A DNA stretch of 64,000 nt from assembly GCA_946616835.1 (NCBI GenBank), contig CAMOJK010000002.1, positions 18,564 through 82,563 of the forward strand. Reading direction: 5' to 3'. The notes below the pieces were generated by a model that was given only the letters and a program-made list of their open reading frames with translations, was not told the DNA's origin and searched no databases. How positions within the stretch are numbered: the first letter of the stretch is position 1; each line of letters starts with the position of its first letter. Source of the stretch: an uncultured Lachnospiraceae bacterium. Its GTDB lineage: Bacteria; Bacillota; Clostridia; Lachnospirales; Lachnospiraceae. Below are positions 22,232-57,551 of the stretch, in pieces. A program made the translations under genes and the position numbers.

Positions 22232-22526
22232 TAATAAAACTTCCCACTTATTATATATTAAAACTTCCCACACCGTGTAGTCTTGTCTGACGGTGTTTTA
22301 GTGAGCCTTAGCAGTTCTCGAAAATGCTACAATACACCAGGAACGGACCGCCATGGAAGGCGGGACGAGTGAACAACGCTACATGGATGTAGCGTGTGAA
22401 CGGTTCCGGAAATATACCATAGATATGGGCATTTTCGTAAGAACTGCTTGGCGAACGGCACCACCGTCAGGCAAGCTACCGGTGTGAGGAAGTTAGTGGT
22501 ATACAACAAGTGGGAAGTTTTTATTA
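22232..22526. repeat. Inverted repeat flanking RNA copy 1
   Basis: TAATAAAACTTCCCACTT (22232-22249) vs reverse complement of AAGTGGGAAGTTTTTATTA (22508-22526), one-nt indel. Confidence 0.7.
22263..22493 (+). ncRNA. Structured RNA element, copy 1 (family unassigned)
   Basis: P1 ACTTCCCACACCG/CGGTGTGAGGAAGT; P2 GTCTGACGGTG/CACCGTCAGGC; P3 AGCAGTTC/GAACTGCT; 39-nt core 22366-22404 identical to copy 2 at 36549-36587. Strand assigned from G-U pairs (weak). Confidence 0.8.
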
Positions 22527-36448: not shown

Positions 36449-36678
36449 GTTCCCCGTCGTGCAGCCTGTGCTGGCGGTGTTAGAGTGAATTTAGCAGTTC
36501 TCGGAACTGCTTATGTAAAGTAGGGACGGGTCACCACGGATGGTGACCCGAGTGAACAACGCTACATGGATGTAGCGTGTGAACGGTCCCGGTTGGACTG
36601 AATATACTTAGGCAGTTCCGTAAGAACTGCTTAATGAACGGCCCCACCGCCAGAGCAGGCTGGACGGTAACGGGGAAC
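36449..36678 (+). ncRNA. Structured RNA element, copy 2 (family unassigned)
   Basis: P1 GTTCCCCGT/ACGGGGAAC; P2 CTGGCGGTG/CACCGCCAG; P3 AGCAGTTC/GAACTGCT; hairpin GGGTCACC/GGTGACCC; core 36549-36587 identical to copy 1. Confidence 0.8.
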
Positions 36679-51356: not shown

Positions 51357-51419
51357 CGGATTGCTCACTGCTGTGATAAGTAATACTTATTGCTAATGAT
51401 TAAAATTATCTATACATCA

Positions 51420-51453
51420 ACCTATTGACTTGCTAGGTAAATGGCTGTAATAT
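51420..51453 (+). promoter_or_regulatory. Sigma-A-type promoter with overlapping inverted repeat upstream of Cys leader
   Basis: TTGACT (51425-51430) -17 nt- TAATAT (51448-51453); ACCTA-N9-TAGGT (51420-51438). Confidence 0.8.
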
Positions 51454-51510
51454 GAGCAACGTAAGGCAAGGCCTTGCGAATTAATTATACTAATAAAGGA
51501 GGATGACAAT

Positions 51511-51621
51511 ATGAGTGCAAATGCAGTAAAGACAAACGGCTGTTGCTGGTGTATGTGTCGAATGCTGTGCTCCCGGGCAGGTAATGTGGTCGGGCGTCTG
51601 GCTCATTTGTCATACGCCTAA
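51511..51621 (+). CDS. Cys-rich leader peptide MSANAVKTNGCCWCMCRMLCSRAGNVVGRLAHLSYA
   Basis: RBS aaaggagg before ATG; 5 Cys in 10 codons; missed by the ORF track owing to size. Confidence 0.8.
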   Translation: MSANAVKTNGCCWCMCRMLCSRAGNVVGRLAHLSYA

Positions 51622-51728
51622 TACGGAGATTCGTCATTTCGGATTTAAGTATTCCATTTGCCCGGGAGTAAAAATCACCGGGCATTTTAAATGCAAAAAT
51701 TTACAAGTGCAGATTACAAATGCCCGGT
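51570..51728 (+). promoter_or_regulatory. Candidate attenuator: four mutually exclusive complementary segments
   Basis: Segment 1 CTCCCGGGCA (51570-51579), 2 TGCCCGGGAG (51659-51668), 3 ACCGGGCATTT (51677-51687), 4 AAATGCCCGGT (51718-51728); 1:2 10 bp, 2:3 7 bp, 3:4 11 bp. Confidence 0.75.
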
Positions 51729-51785
51729 CAATTAAAACTTCTGAGACAGTAGAATATTTGATCAATAAAAAAGAGGAGAAGAACT

Positions 51786-53468
51786 ATGAAAAAGAAACTA
51801 TTCAGAATCTTACTTACAGGTGTCCTGACTGCGAGCCTTGGACTGGCTGCACTTACAGGATGCGAGAACGCAAATGATCCCGGAACAGCAGCTGCTACCG
51901 GCAATGATGACAGCAAGGTATACAGGACGCTCGATGAGATCAAGGCAGATGGAACCATCAATATCGGAGTATTCTCCGACAAGAATCCCTTTGGATATGT
52001 TGATGAGAACGGTGATTATCAGGGATATGATGTTTATTTTGCGGAGAGGATCGGACAGGATCTTGGAGTGAATATAAACTACGTATCAACTGAAGCAGCA
52101 AGCAGGGTTGAGTATCTTGAGACCGGTAAGGTTGATATCGTACTTGCAAACTTCACGGTAACGGCAGAGAGAGCAGAAAAGGTTGATTTTGCTCTTCCCT
52201 ATATGAATGTGGCACTGGGTGTTGTTTCACCTGAAAGCAATGTTATAACAAGCCTTGATCAGATTGGTGCAGATGATCAGGTGATCGTAATCTCCGGTAC
52301 AACGGCTGAGACATATCTCGAAGAAAACTATCCGGACATCAAGCTTCAGAAGTTTGATACATATGCAACAGCAAAAACTTCTTTTGAAAACGGAACAGGC
52401 GTAGCTTGGGCAAATGATAATACAGAAGTTATAGCATATGCTCTTGAGAATGAGGGATATGTGGTAGGTATTCCCGAGCTTGGAAGCCAGGATACCATTG
52501 CACCCGCTGTATCAAAAGGAAATGACACATTGCTTAGCTGGCTGAATGATGAGATCAAGACACTTGGTAATGAGAATTTCTTCCATGCAGATTATGAGGC
52601 TACACTTCTTGATACCTATGGTGCAGATTACGAAGATACACTCGTTGTTGAAGGCGGAGTTGTCGGTGGTGCATCTGATGACACTGCACCTGCTGCAGAC
52701 ACAGCAGACGCTCTTGATATCGTACCCGGCAACGGCGAGGTTATCACTGTAGCAGCTTCACCCGTACCTCACGCAGAGATACTTGCTAAGGCAGCAGATA
52801 TACTTGACGATTACGGATACACACTCGAGGTAACTGAGTTTGAAGATTATGTACAGCCCAACCTTGTTGTAGAGTCAGGTGAGTTTGATGCTAACTATTT
52901 CCAGCACGTTCCTTATCTTGACAGCTTCAATGAGGAGCAGGGAACACATCTTGTAGATGCAGGCGATATCCACTATGAGCCCTTTGGAATCTATCCCGGA
53001 ACAAAGAGCAGTCTTGATGAGATAGCTGATGGAGATTCCATTGCAATACCTAACGATACTACAAACGAAGCAAGAGCACTTCTTCTTCTTCAGGACAACG
53101 GTTTACTTACACTGGCTGACGGAGTAGGACTTACAGCAACTGTTAATGATATCACAGAGAACCCTTACAACATTCAGTTCGTTGAGCTTGAAGCAGCACA
53201 GGTGGCAAGAGTTGTTGATGAAGTAGCATTCGTTGTACTTAACGGTAACTACGCACTTGAGGCAGGATATTCTGTAGGCCAGGATTCAATCGCATACGAA
53301 GCAAGTGATTCAATCGCAGCTGAAACATATGTGAACATCATTGCTGTATATGACGGCAACGAGTCTTCTGACAAGATCAAGGCTCTGGTGGCTGTATTAA
53401 GATCTGAAGAGATCCAGCAGTTCATCGAAGAAACTTATGACGGTGCAGTAGTGTTCTACGACAAATAA
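51786..53468 (+). CDS. Fused ABC substrate-binding lipoprotein: SBP_bac_3 domain + NlpA/MetQ domain
   Basis: Lipobox LTGC; TINIGVFSDKNPFGYVDENGDYQGYDVYFAERIGQDLG... then VITVAASPVPHAEILAKAADILDDYGYTLEVTEFEDYVQPNLVVESGEFDANYFQHVPYLDSF. Confidence 0.92.
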   Translation: MKKKLFRILLTGVLTASLGLAALTGCENANDPGTAAATGNDDSKVYRTLDEIKADGTINIGVFSDKNPFGYVDENGDYQGYDVYFAERIGQDLGVNINYVSTEAASRVEYLETGKVDIVLANFTVTAERAEKVDFALPYMNVALGVVSPESNVITSLDQIGADDQVIVISGTTAETYLEENYPDIKLQKFDTYATAKTSFENGTGVAWANDNTEVIAYALENEGYVVGIPELGSQDTIAPAVSKGNDTLLSWLNDEIKTLGNENFFHADYEATLLDTYGADYEDTLVVEGGVVGGASDDTAPAADTADALDIVPGNGEVITVAASPVPHAEILAKAADILDDYGYTLEVTEFEDYVQPNLVVESGEFDANYFQHVPYLDSFNEEQGTHLVDAGDIHYEPFGIYPGTKSSLDEIADGDSIAIPNDTTNEARALLLLQDNGLLTLADGVGLTATVNDITENPYNIQFVELEAAQVARVVDEVAFVVLNGNYALEAGYSVGQDSIAYEASDSIAAETYVNIIAVYDGNESSDKIKALVAVLRSEEIQQFIEETYDGAVVFYDK

Positions 53469-53627: not shown

Positions 53628-53666
53628 TTAAATGAATATACTAATCTGATTAGTGTATTCATTTAA
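53628..53666. promoter_or_regulatory. 39-bp AT-rich palindrome upstream of metN-like gene
   Basis: TTAAATGAATATACTAATC T GATTAGTGTATTCATTTAA, 18/19 arm match. Confidence 0.75.
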
Positions 53667-53715
53667 TACAATAACAAAACGTACAGTTCATAAGCTGTAC
53701 GAAACAGGAGATAAA

Positions 53716-54729
53716 ATGAGCGAGATAGAAATCAAAAATCTAACAAAAACATTTAAGGCAAAGGACTTAAATGTCACGGCCCTTAACAATATCAATCTTA
53801 CCATTGAGAAGGGTGACATCTTCGGAATAATCGGTATGTCCGGTGCCGGAAAAAGTACGCTTGTCAGGACTATCAATTTTCTTGAAAGACCTACTGACGG
53901 CCAGGTGTTTATCGAGGGTGTGGATCTGGCAACTCTTAGCGAAAAGGAATTACGTAAGAAACGTTCCAAGATTGGGATGATATTCCAGAGTTTTAATCTG
54001 CTGGAGCAGAAAAGTGTTACCGACAATGTCTGCTTTCCTCTAGAGCTTGCAGGGGTAAAGAAAAAGGAGGCAAGGCAGAAGGCGAAGGAGCTTCTCAAAA
54101 CCGTAAACCTGGAGGAAAAGGCGAAGGTTTATCCTTCACAGCTTTCCGGAGGACAGAAGCAGAGAGTGGCGATTGCAAGAGCACTTGCAACAGAGCCGGA
54201 TATACTCCTCTGCGATGAGGCTACCAGTGCTCTTGACCCCCAGACTACGGAATCCATACTTCAGCTTTTAAAAGAAATAAATGAAAAGCTTGGCATAACC
54301 ATAGTGATAATAACCCATCAGATGTCGGTTGTGACCAGCATCTGTAATAAGGTTGCCATTATCGATAACGGAGACCTGGTGGAAGAGGGCGCAGTAGAGG
54401 AGATATTTGAGTCGCCTAAATCGGATGCTGCAAAGGAACTTATTCTCGATACGAAGATAAGATATTCACCACTTGATGTACTTGAGGCTGAAAGGAAAGT
54501 GCGTATAGTCTTCTCTGAAAATTCAGCATACGAGCCGGTAATAGCCAACCTGATCCTTAATTTTAATGCACCGGTCAACATACTGAAAGCGGACACGAGA
54601 AATGTAGGAGGGAAAGCAAAAGGTGAAATGATACTGGGGCTGCCTGAGGGAGAAGATCTGCAGGAGCAGATGATAAGCTGGCTGAAAGAAAGAAATCTGG
54701 CTGTAACGGAGGTGAAGGAAGATGTTTGA
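53716..54729 (+). CDS. metN: Methionine-type ABC transporter ATP-binding protein with C-terminal NIL-like domain
   Basis: GMSGAGKSTLVRTINFLERP, LSGGQKQRVAIARAL, C-terminal NIL-like extension. Confidence 0.88.
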   Translation: MSEIEIKNLTKTFKAKDLNVTALNNINLTIEKGDIFGIIGMSGAGKSTLVRTINFLERPTDGQVFIEGVDLATLSEKELRKKRSKIGMIFQSFNLLEQKSVTDNVCFPLELAGVKKKEARQKAKELLKTVNLEEKAKVYPSQLSGGQKQRVAIARALATEPDILLCDEATSALDPQTTESILQLLKEINEKLGITIVIITHQMSVVTSICNKVAIIDNGDLVEEGAVEEIFESPKSDAAKELILDTKIRYSPLDVLEAERKVRIVFSENSAYEPVIANLILNFNAPVNILKADTRNVGGKAKGEMILGLPEGEDLQEQMISWLKERNLAVTEVKEDV

Positions 54730-55384
54730 TCAGAAAGTAATAGAGATGATACTGGTGGGCATAAAGGATACCCTTTACATGACGCTGGTATCAACATTTT
54801 TCGGATATGTCCTTGGACTGCCAATGGGTATTATTTTAAATGTTACCAGGAAGGAAGGTTTAAGACCCAACAGGATCATTTATGGTATAGGTGATTTTAT
54901 CTGTAACATAGTACGAAGCGTTCCCTTTCTGATCCTGCTGATACTGCTGATACCTTTTACAAAATTCGTAGTGGGAAAAAGCTACGGCTCCACCGCGACC
55001 ATTGTGCCTCTGGTGATCTGTGCCGCACCTTATATAGCAAGGGTGGTGGAGTCTTCATTAAATGAGGTTGATGCCGGAGTCATAGAAGCTGCAAAGGCCA
55101 TGGGAGCAAGCAACCTGCAGATAATTTTTAAGGTACTTTTAGTGGAAGCAAGGGTTTCGCTTCTTACAGGAGCAACTATTACCACAGGCATACTGCTTGG
55201 CTATTCGGCAATGTCCGGAACAGTAGGCGGCGGCGGACTCGGTGACATAGCCGTAAGATACGGATACTACAGATGGCAGGCCGATATCATGATCGTAACG
55301 GTAGTGCTGCTCATAATTATTTTCCAGCTGATACAGAATTTCGGAACTGCGTTAGCCAGGTTCATTGATCACAGAAAGCATTAG
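54722..55384 (+). CDS. metI: Methionine-type ABC transporter permease
   Basis: DTLYMTLVSTFFGYVLGLPMGI...EAAKAMGASNLQIIFKVLLVEA, ATGT overlap with metN. Confidence 0.9.
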   Translation: MFDQKVIEMILVGIKDTLYMTLVSTFFGYVLGLPMGIILNVTRKEGLRPNRIIYGIGDFICNIVRSVPFLILLILLIPFTKFVVGKSYGSTATIVPLVICAAPYIARVVESSLNEVDAGVIEAAKAMGASNLQIIFKVLLVEARVSLLTGATITTGILLGYSAMSGTVGGGGLGDIAVRYGYYRWQADIMIVTVVLLIIIFQLIQNFGTALARFIDHRKH

Positions 55385-55387
55385 TAT

Positions 55388-56047
55388 ATGGATTTTGAAG
55401 TAATAAAATCATACATACCGTTATTTGCGGAAGCCTTCTTACTGACCATAAAAACAGGGTGGTTTGGTATTGCACTGTCTTTTGCACTGGGACTGATATG
55501 CGCCTTCATTCTTTATTTTAAGATACCGGTTCTGTCCGCTGCTGTTAAGGTGTATGTGGAGCTTTTCAGAAATACGCCGCTGCTGGTTCAGCTTTTCTTT
55601 ATGTATTATGGTCTGCCTATACTTGGAATAAGGGTTTCAGCCGAGATATGCGGTATCATAGGCTTGGGACTTCTCGGCGGCAGCTATATGACGGAAAGCA
55701 TACGCAGCGGTTTGGAATCTGTTCCGAAGATACAGACAGAAAGCGCGCTGTCCCTGGGAATGACGAAGCCCCAGCTTTTCAGGCTGGTGATACTGCCACA
55801 GGCTTTTGCCATGAGTGTGCCGGCCATAGTTGCAAACATTATTTTTTTGCTTAAGGAAACAAGTGTATTTTCAGCCATAAGTCTTATGGACCTTATGTTC
55901 ACCGCAAAGGATCTTATAGGTCTTTATTATGACACAACGGAGAGCCTGTTCCTTCTTGTGGTCTTTTATATTATCATGCTCCTTCCGGTTTCGATTTTAG
56001 GAACAGTGGCTGAAAAGAAGGCAAGATTTAAAATATACGGAGTCTGA
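55388..56047 (+). CDS. Polar amino acid ABC transporter permease (HisM family) 1
   Basis: VYVELFRNTPLLVQLFFMYYGLP...ESALSLGMTKPQLFRLVILPQA. Confidence 0.9.
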   Translation: MDFEVIKSYIPLFAEAFLLTIKTGWFGIALSFALGLICAFILYFKIPVLSAAVKVYVELFRNTPLLVQLFFMYYGLPILGIRVSAEICGIIGLGLLGGSYMTESIRSGLESVPKIQTESALSLGMTKPQLFRLVILPQAFAMSVPAIVANIIFLLKETSVFSAISLMDLMFTAKDLIGLYYDTTESLFLLVVFYIIMLLPVSILGTVAEKKARFKIYGV

Positions 56048-56112
56048 TCGCAACGACGAATCTGATATTCGCCGTGCGTGCCTTGCATAAAGTGTTTGGC
56101 ATGGAGGATAGT

Positions 56113-56781
56113 ATGGGTTTTGATGTATTATTAAAAGGAAAAAATATGCTCCGTCTCCTGGAGGGACTGGGAGTGGCGATGAAGATAAGTCTTGTATCCG
56201 TTGTCATCAGCATATTCTTAGGGATTGTCGTAGGCATGCTTATGTCTCAGAAAAAGCCATTGATAAATGCGATAACGAGGATCTATCTGGAAATCGTCCG
56301 CATAATGCCGCAGTTAGTGTTGCTGTTTATTGTGTTTTTTGGGTTTACGAAGCTGACGGGGAAAAATATCTCTGCAGAGCTTTCTTCTATTATAGTATTT
56401 TCATTCTGGGGAACGGCTGAGATGGCAGACCTTGTGCGGGGAAGTCTTTTAAGTATACCGATGATACAGTATGAAAGCAGCAAGGCGCTTGGTTTTAGCA
56501 GGCTGCAGACATATATCTACATTATCATTCCGCAGGTGGCAAGGCGTTTGCTCCCGCTTTCGATTAATCTTATAACGAGGATGATAAAGACTACATCGCT
56601 GATAATGATGATAGGAATGGTGGAAGTGCTGAAAACGGGACAGCAGATCATAGAGGCTAACAGAAAGACTTCACCGGGAGCAGCGTTTGGGATTTTTGCA
56701 ACTATCTTTCTGCTGTATTTTCTGGCATGCTGGCCTATAAGCTGTTTGTCGAAATATCTGGAGAAACGCTGGGAGAATTAA
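56113..56781 (+). CDS. Polar amino acid ABC transporter permease (HisM family) 2
   Basis: IYLEIVRIMPQLVLLFIVFFG...ESSKALGFSRLQTYIYIIIPQV. Confidence 0.88.
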   Translation: MGFDVLLKGKNMLRLLEGLGVAMKISLVSVVISIFLGIVVGMLMSQKKPLINAITRIYLEIVRIMPQLVLLFIVFFGFTKLTGKNISAELSSIIVFSFWGTAEMADLVRGSLLSIPMIQYESSKALGFSRLQTYIYIIIPQVARRLLPLSINLITRMIKTTSLIMMIGMVEVLKTGQQIIEANRKTSPGAAFGIFATIFLLYFLACWPISCLSKYLEKRWEN

Positions 56782-56804
56782 CTGTAAATGCACAGAGGTA
56801 TACC

Positions 56805-57551
56805 ATGGAAGAGATACTAAAGATAGAACATTTAAAAAAATCATTTGATGACCTTACCATATTGGAGGACATAAATCTTTCTGTAAAAAAAGGTGAAGTG
56901 CTTGTGGTGGTCGGTCCTTCGGGATGCGGGAAAAGTACTTTGCTTCGCTGCATAAACGGTCTGGAAGATATCCAGGAGGGAAAGGTGATACTTGAGGGCA
57001 ACATTATTAATCCTCTTGTAGACCGAAAGTCAAAATATCGTGAGAAGATCGGAATGGTATTCCAGAGCTATGATCTTTTTCCACACAAGACCATTCTTGA
57101 AAATGTGATGCTGGCACCGCTAAAAGTGCAGAAGAGAAAAAAGGATGAGGTGAAAAAAGAAGCAGAGCAGCTGCTCGACAGAGTGGGACTTTTATCAAAG
57201 GTGTCCAATTATCCCAGGCAGCTTTCCGGCGGACAGAAGCAGAGGGTGGCGATAGTAAGGGCGCTCATAATGCATCCGGAGATATTGCTTTTTGATGAAG
57301 TGACTGCCGCTCTTGATCCGGAGATGGTAAGGGAAGTACTGGATGTAATACTTGACCTTGCAAAGCAGCAGAGAACAATGCTGATAGTTACTCATGAAAT
57401 GGCTTTCGCAAAAGCTATAGCCGATCGGGTGATATTCCTTGACGGCGGCAGCATTGTGGAGGATTCAGATCCGACATCTTTTTTCACTGCGCCCAAGACA
57501 GACAGGGCACGGAAGTTCCTGAATACCTTTGAATTCGAGAAGGTGCACTAG
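56805..57551 (+). CDS. Amino acid ABC transporter ATP-binding protein (GlnQ-like)
   Basis: VVGPSGCGKSTLLRCINGLE, LSGGQKQRVAIVRAL, LLFDEVTAALDPEMV. Confidence 0.92.
   Translation: MEEILKIEHLKKSFDDLTILEDINLSVKKGEVLVVVGPSGCGKSTLLRCINGLEDIQEGKVILEGNIINPLVDRKSKYREKIGMVFQSYDLFPHKTILENVMLAPLKVQKRKKDEVKKEAEQLLDRVGLLSKVSNYPRQLSGGQKQRVAIVRALIMHPEILLFDEVTAALDPEMVREVLDVILDLAKQQRTMLIVTHEMAFAKAIADRVIFLDGGSIVEDSDPTSFFTAPKTDRARKFLNTFEFEKVH

Follow-up and report, generated by a model that had tools for sequence, protein, structure and literature searches.

A 64,000-nucleotide (nt) stretch of DNA (the window) from an uncultured Lachnospiraceae bacterium (assembly GCA_946616835.1, contig CAMOJK010000002.1, positions 18,564 to 82,563, forward strand) was analysed at 51511-51785, where a short Cys-rich leader open reading frame (ORF) and four complementary RNA segments precede an importer operon. 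The leader is predicted, with a probability of about 0.86, to be a cysteine-responsive, ribosome-mediated transcription attenuator in which low cysteine gives readthrough. Comparison among relatives shows the ORF with its frame and Cys codons, a junction closed by segments 1 and 2 (1:2), a hairpin of segments 2 and 3 (2:3) with its U-run, and the association with sulfur genes; that ribosomes stall, which way the switch responds, that a motif CGAATG pairs and that transcription terminates we infer. The ORF of 36 codons with its ribosome-binding site (RBS) and the four segments had been proposed in an earlier sequence-only reading and proved exact to the base, as did the pairings: segment 1 is the exact reverse complement of segment 2 (10 bp), 2:3 spans 7 bp (TGCCCGG/CCGGGCA), and segment 3, taken as 51677-51687, is perfectly complementary to segment 4 (11 bp).

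Relatives were collected in three ways. A protein search (98 relatives) returned homologous leaders in ten further genomes of the genus, each ahead of the lipoprotein gene that also follows the window leader, which argues that leader and segments form a conserved element and not a chance arrangement. A covariance model built from these eleven leaders (window plus ten genus relatives) matched, at E ≤ 1, 56 of 397 family genomes (51 of the 334 genera sampled), the majority of the matches listed being far stronger, and a second model extended the range to two more families within the order and to four more distant genomes of the phylum; the covariance-model set comprised 60 loci. A pattern scan of named genomes, in which CGAATG, segment 1 and segment 2 were fixed and nothing upstream was specified, gave at least 120 loci (101 non-redundant); counts out of 120 below are among the matches listed. 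The pattern loci lie in Lachnospiraceae, Saccharofermentans, Blautia, Pseudobutyrivibrio, a Christensenella bin and others, many of them from the rumen; a cultured carrier is Pseudobutyrivibrio xylanivorans DSM 14809 (L156). The element as a whole occurs in dozens of Lachnospiraceae genera and is sparse elsewhere in the phylum. The source genome holds three copies: that in the window, one ahead of metY-cysK and one ahead of metB-cysK.

As read from the window sequence, the leader ORF starts with ATG at 51511-51513 and ends with TAA at 51619-51621. An RBS-bearing ORF entered the motif in the leader frame at 99 of the 101 non-redundant pattern loci, compared with 6 and 7 for the remaining two frames. 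Cys codons filled leader position -1 in 102/120 pattern loci and position -2 in 88/120, falling to 31 at -3 and 7 at -4, and TGC was in use beside TGT (5 versus 97 at -1, 13 versus 75 at -2). Because the Cys codons lay outside the search pattern, this enrichment counts as support, and translation of the ORF, with frame and Cys codons conserved far beyond chance, is a well supported prediction. The sequence-only reading had named comparison of relatives as a check on its proposal of cysteine sensing by a translated Cys leader; relatives keep the Cys codons and show covariation of the segments (below), and by this comparison the proposal is well supported. Its further point, that the Cys codon run overlaps segment 1, holds in the window, where Cys codons lie at 51541-51546, 51550-51552, 51556-51558 and 51568-51570 and the last touches segment 1; that codon is unconserved (Asn, Phe, Ile or Tyr in most relatives) and peculiar to few leaders, the conserved Cys codons ending at 51558.

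Apart from the Cys codons, the N-terminal half of the leader peptide is variable among relatives, and the peptide matched no known peptide family in NCBIfam or Pfam. Codon -3 is ATG (Met) in 63/120 listed loci (L111-L230), besides the fixed ATG inside CGAATG; this enrichment may reflect Met sensing as well, or an RNA constraint. In 37 of 103 leaders (L111-L230) the peptide finishes with Arg-Cys, plus at most one residue, ahead of the stop (CGATGTTGA), and these ends frequently lie within the 5' arm of a stop-codon hairpin. The peptide could instead act by nascent chain arrest, Cys-Arg-Met within the exit tunnel responding to cysteine or to some related metabolite, with the same RNA output; the conserved Cys-Arg-Met, the presence of just two Cys codons in many leaders and the Met enrichment at -3 would suit such arrest, but it appears unlikely, as the upstream residues expected in the tunnel show high variability, Cys, Met and Trp come in no fixed number or order, and CGAATG is preserved as nucleotides, with a proposed role in the RNA.

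The putative antiterminator is a junction made of 1:2, an inner extension and the hairpins P2 and P3. Over the 60 covariance-model loci its cells were paired in 87.9% of cases, cells changed on both sides numbered 249 (76 in shuffles, 33-58 with slid partners), and covariation was found in every inner helix; the first eleven leaders, aligned without structure, gave the same compensatory trend for 1:2. Stable 2:3 pairing was present in 94 of 97 loci tested, and 5-7 T per 7-nt window followed it directly in 97 of 97 relatives tested. This U-run points to 2:3 as the intrinsic terminator and to 1:2 as the antiterminator, the two being mutually exclusive by prediction, and shifts by one the ladder of the sequence-only reading. 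The 3:4 terminator of that trp-like ladder was rejected, as 3:4 is optional and has no U-run; the earlier remark that no clear U-tract follows 3:4 was thus borne out, and termination at 2:3, then named as one of several outputs, fits the U-run of the relatives. A strong partner of segment 3 past the U-run was found at 27 of 95 loci (9.7 expected); segment 4 may hold segment 3 after the passage of polymerase. The 3:4 hairpin of the window copy is stable (-20.9 kcal/mol).

Regulation by a Cys leader chiefly via Rho, RNA processing or first-gene translation, and not via the 2:3 terminator, would accord with the short U-run of the window copy, with the stability of 3:4 and with the report of mycobacterial Cys leaders as translation attenuators (PMC13236596); it is nevertheless very improbable, since 2:3 with its U-run recurs in essentially every relative and the optional 3:4 excludes the first-gene RBS near 51771. 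A metabolite riboswitch with an incidental ORF, its junction binding cysteine, S-adenosylmethionine (SAM) or a related molecule to select 1:2 or 2:3, can be nearly dismissed despite the large covarying junction, the loop conserved within the window's sub-family and the position ahead of sulfur genes, because conservation of ORF, RBS, frame and Cys codons exceeds chance by far, loop sequences differ between sub-families, and neither the window leader nor 14 relative loci matched Rfam at the gathering score (the E-value gave chance-level snoRNA matches only). The T-box model (RF00230) had no match in the window leader, the T-boxes of the source genome lying at three other places, and the SAM riboswitch model (RF00162) had none in the leader, the one found in the genome lying elsewhere. 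A pairing of AAATGAG, present at some leader starts, with the loop CTCATTT was also considered and was dropped, since locus L006 keeps the loop but has no matching sequence at its leader start and since the loop is absent from other sub-families.

Ribosome-mediated attenuation would proceed as follows. In 49 of the 56 covariance-model loci that could be scored, the start of the last Cys codon lies 14 nt 5' of segment 1, and a ribosome footprint reaches about 12-13 nt past the first base of the A-site codon. Under shortage of Cys-tRNA(Cys), a ribosome stalled with its A site on Cys codon -1 or -2 would cover CGAATG and end 1-2 nt 5' of segment 1, so that segment 1 would stay free for segment 2 and low cysteine would give readthrough: the two would form the three-way-junction antiterminator, terminator 2:3 would be blocked and polymerase would enter the importer genes. 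When cysteine is plentiful, the ribosome would reach the stop codon, about 20-40 nt 5' of segment 2 in most relatives (the distance is 14-66 nt in all loci but one, most often about 25-32 nt), and, lodged within the junction, would melt P2 and P3; behind it CGAATG could pair with the P2 region and so sequester segment 1. Segment 2 would then pair with segment 3, and the U-run would end transcription.

CGAATG, near-invariant among covariance-model matches, is likely, but not settled, to be the ladder's missing first segment (segment 0), the arm of an anti-antiterminator. Its partner [CT][AG]TT[CT]G occurred at +28 to +75 in 56 of 103 loci, versus 11.6 in shuffles (maximum 22) and 16 for the mirror image. 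MetY-type leaders can form a hairpin of CGAATGC/GCRTTCG plus CCCGG/CCGGG at about -19 kcal/mol; for window-type leaders CATTTG (51604-51609) is the candidate partner, with a weaker fold, and the pairing was not in the minimum-energy fold of the window's own 5' region.

Several observations weigh against the attenuator as drawn. The covariance-model alignment was fitted to the structure, so the covariation figures are somewhat inflated, and the pattern loci, having been picked by CGAATG and segments 1 and 2, cannot test those parts. The U-run of the window copy is TTTT only, weaker than in most relatives. Equilibrium energies strongly favour the 1:2 junction (about -50 kcal/mol versus -15 for 2:3), so that termination would need ribosome traffic or kinetics; where the 5' hairpin is weak, such folding makes readthrough the predicted default in the absence of ribosomes. 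Some leaders carry a single Cys codon beside the motif. In the folding test CGAATG paired in 60 of 103 loci where 37 were expected with permuted CGAATG, a modest excess, and its pairing is weak or absent in almost half of the loci.

Table 1. Positions in the window of the predicted leader elements, promoter and downstream genes
Feature	Position	Strand	Remarks
Inverted repeat ACCTATTGACTTGCTAGGT over -35 box	51420..51438	+	candidate Rrf2/CymR-like repressor operator
Predicted sigma-A promoter TTGACT-17-TAATAT	51425..51453	+	read from window sequence
Shine-Dalgarno AAGGAGGA of leader ORF	51496..51503	+	RBS in leader frame in 99/101 relatives
Predicted leader peptide ORF	51511..51621	+	36 codons plus TAA; encodes MSANAVKTNGCCWCMCRMLCSRAGNVVGRLAHLSYA
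Putative Cys control codons TGT TGC TGG TGT ATG TGT	51541..51558	+	Cys conservation in relatives
CGAATG, proposed segment 0, anti-antiterminator 5' arm	51559..51564	+	near-invariant; complement enriched downstream
Segment 1, putative antiterminator 5' arm	51570..51579	+	CTCCCGGGCA; compensatory changes with segment 2
Hairpin P2 within putative antiterminator junction	51592..51619	+	loop CATTTG (51604-51609) can pair with CGAATG
Segment 2, common to putative antiterminator and terminator	51659..51668	+	pairing, compensatory changes
Segment 3 core CCGGGCA plus TTTT, putative intrinsic-terminator 3' arm	51678..51688	+	short U-run in window copy
Segment 4, complementary to segment 3; optional	51718..51728	+	strong 3:4 in 27/95 loci
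First gene under putative control: lipoprotein in which SBP_bac_3 (cystine type) is joined to NlpA/MetQ	51786..53468	+	
Rest of importer operon	53653..57551	+	genes given in text

Behind the lipoprotein gene the operon encodes a MetN-like ATPase with NIL domain, a MetI permease, two cystine/polar amino-acid permeases and a GlnQ/TcyN-like ATPase; the fusion lipoprotein apparently serves two ATP-binding cassette importers of the one operon. Gating of a Met/amino-acid importer, as the leader had first been interpreted, is in keeping with this cystine/methionine importer but is too narrow, the element also heading other sulfur operons. Among 171 first downstream genes, 87 belonged to the O-acetylhomoserine sulfhydrylase/cystathionine gamma-synthase group (MetY/MetB type), 60 encoded substrate-binding lipoproteins, 7 cystine-type permeases and 7 GST-like proteins (found at L041, L067, L070, L127, L181 and L225, among the loci noted); a MetN-like ATPase, cysK, a PepT-like peptidase, metK and (2S)-3-sulfopropanediol dehydratase (at L075) occurred singly or in pairs. 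Nearly all first genes act in the synthesis or uptake of sulfur amino acids. The element thus appears to head a sulfur regulon, its gene set closely fitting cysteine and sulfur supply.

The leader shares with the enterobacterial trp and his attenuators a short leader peptide with control codons, exclusive hairpins and a putative intrinsic terminator, and with CGAATG taken first the order of the ladder is equal (0:1, then 1:2 as antiterminator and 2:3 as terminator); it differs in using cysteine in place of Trp or His, in its unrelated sequence and in an antiterminator drawn as a three-way junction that encloses the end of the ORF. Other Cys leaders have been described or predicted for mycobacteria, Propionibacterium and Bifidobacterium (PMC1262725; PMC13236596). 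The mycobacterial polycysteine leader ORFs (Canestrari et al. 2020, cited in PMC13236596) are, in the account given there, cysteine-responsive translation attenuators ahead of cysteine genes and in this resemble the present leader; by that description, on which the comparison is made, they differ in being leaderless ORFs with Cys runs near the stop codon, and mycobacterial Cys leaders had been predicted earlier without a conserved terminator hairpin (PMC1262725). The uORFC-8-2 motif of Rhodobacterales cysS (PMC8632094) likewise has two tandem conserved Cys codons, a terminal U-run and predicted ribosome-mediated attenuation, but it is confined to sites upstream of cysS in alphaproteobacteria, has its control codons inside the first stem and is otherwise built. 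Leader-peptide attenuation replacing T-boxes in Firmicutes has a parallel in the His attenuators of the Bacillus cereus group, Peptostreptococcaceae and Erysipelotrichales (PMC2965389, PMC9413887), which respond to histidine, serve his genes only and have no known sequence in common with the leader. The Cys T-boxes of Clostridium (PMC2940859) control cysK, cysteine transport and methionine-to-cysteine genes by premature termination according to Cys-tRNA charging, but bind the tRNA directly, without translation. No record of the family was found in Rfam 15, NCBIfam, Pfam or open papers, nor any literature on a Lachnospiraceae or clostridial Cys leader; subscription papers lay outside the search, and 'undescribed' is provisional.

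Known regulators in the cysteine control of Firmicutes include T-boxes and CymR-like repressors. The leader would be a new RNA family of a known kind, the ribosome-mediated attenuator. On balance we favour a wider reading, held with distinctly less assurance, in which this family, absent from curated libraries, is a main sensor of cysteine in Lachnospiraceae and in certain other Clostridia. A genome would carry it ahead of several sulfur operons (uptake, MetY, MetB, CysK, organosulfonate use), superimposed on an Rrf2-type operator, and it would work through a ribosome-coupled three-way-junction antiterminator in a phylum whose amino-acid control is mostly attributed to T-boxes and in which transcription often outruns translation. 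That other clostridial mechanisms of cysteine control may exist was suggested in a study of C. perfringens (PMC2940859). As a recurrent marker of sulfur genes in Lachnospiraceae of rumen and gut, the candidate switch could serve to annotate them. In Bacillus subtilis RNA polymerase was found to run ahead of ribosomes (reviewed in PMC7858274), and the proposed switch, which would need ribosome action before the U-run is transcribed, bears on whether these Bacillota keep both machines close or pause polymerase.

Upstream of the leader a possible second layer of control was noted. The repeat ACCTATTGAC..TAGGT at 51420-51438 is the sole match in the source genome, and a CTATTGAC-type core lies upstream in 98/120 listed pattern loci. 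It resembles an Rrf2-type operator. Rrf2 genes scored over the cut-off in 11 of 12 relatives, in some adjoining the leader, and Rrf2-family genes lie at most about 3 kb from leader-controlled operons at G427:C9, G368:C7 and G261:C10; the identity of the regulator is a guess, because no Rrf2 gene was found in the 86%-complete source assembly. A GATAAG..CTTATC..GATAA-like motif, possibly a LysR-type site, was seen at 51373-51402 in the window, ahead of both leaders of L061, and at L127 and L132; it is found ahead of leaders without the ACCTA repeat, and the window copy carries both. Elsewhere in the window, two TwoAYGGAY RNAs (RF01731) were detected at 22297-22455 and 36478-36646, well over the gathering score.
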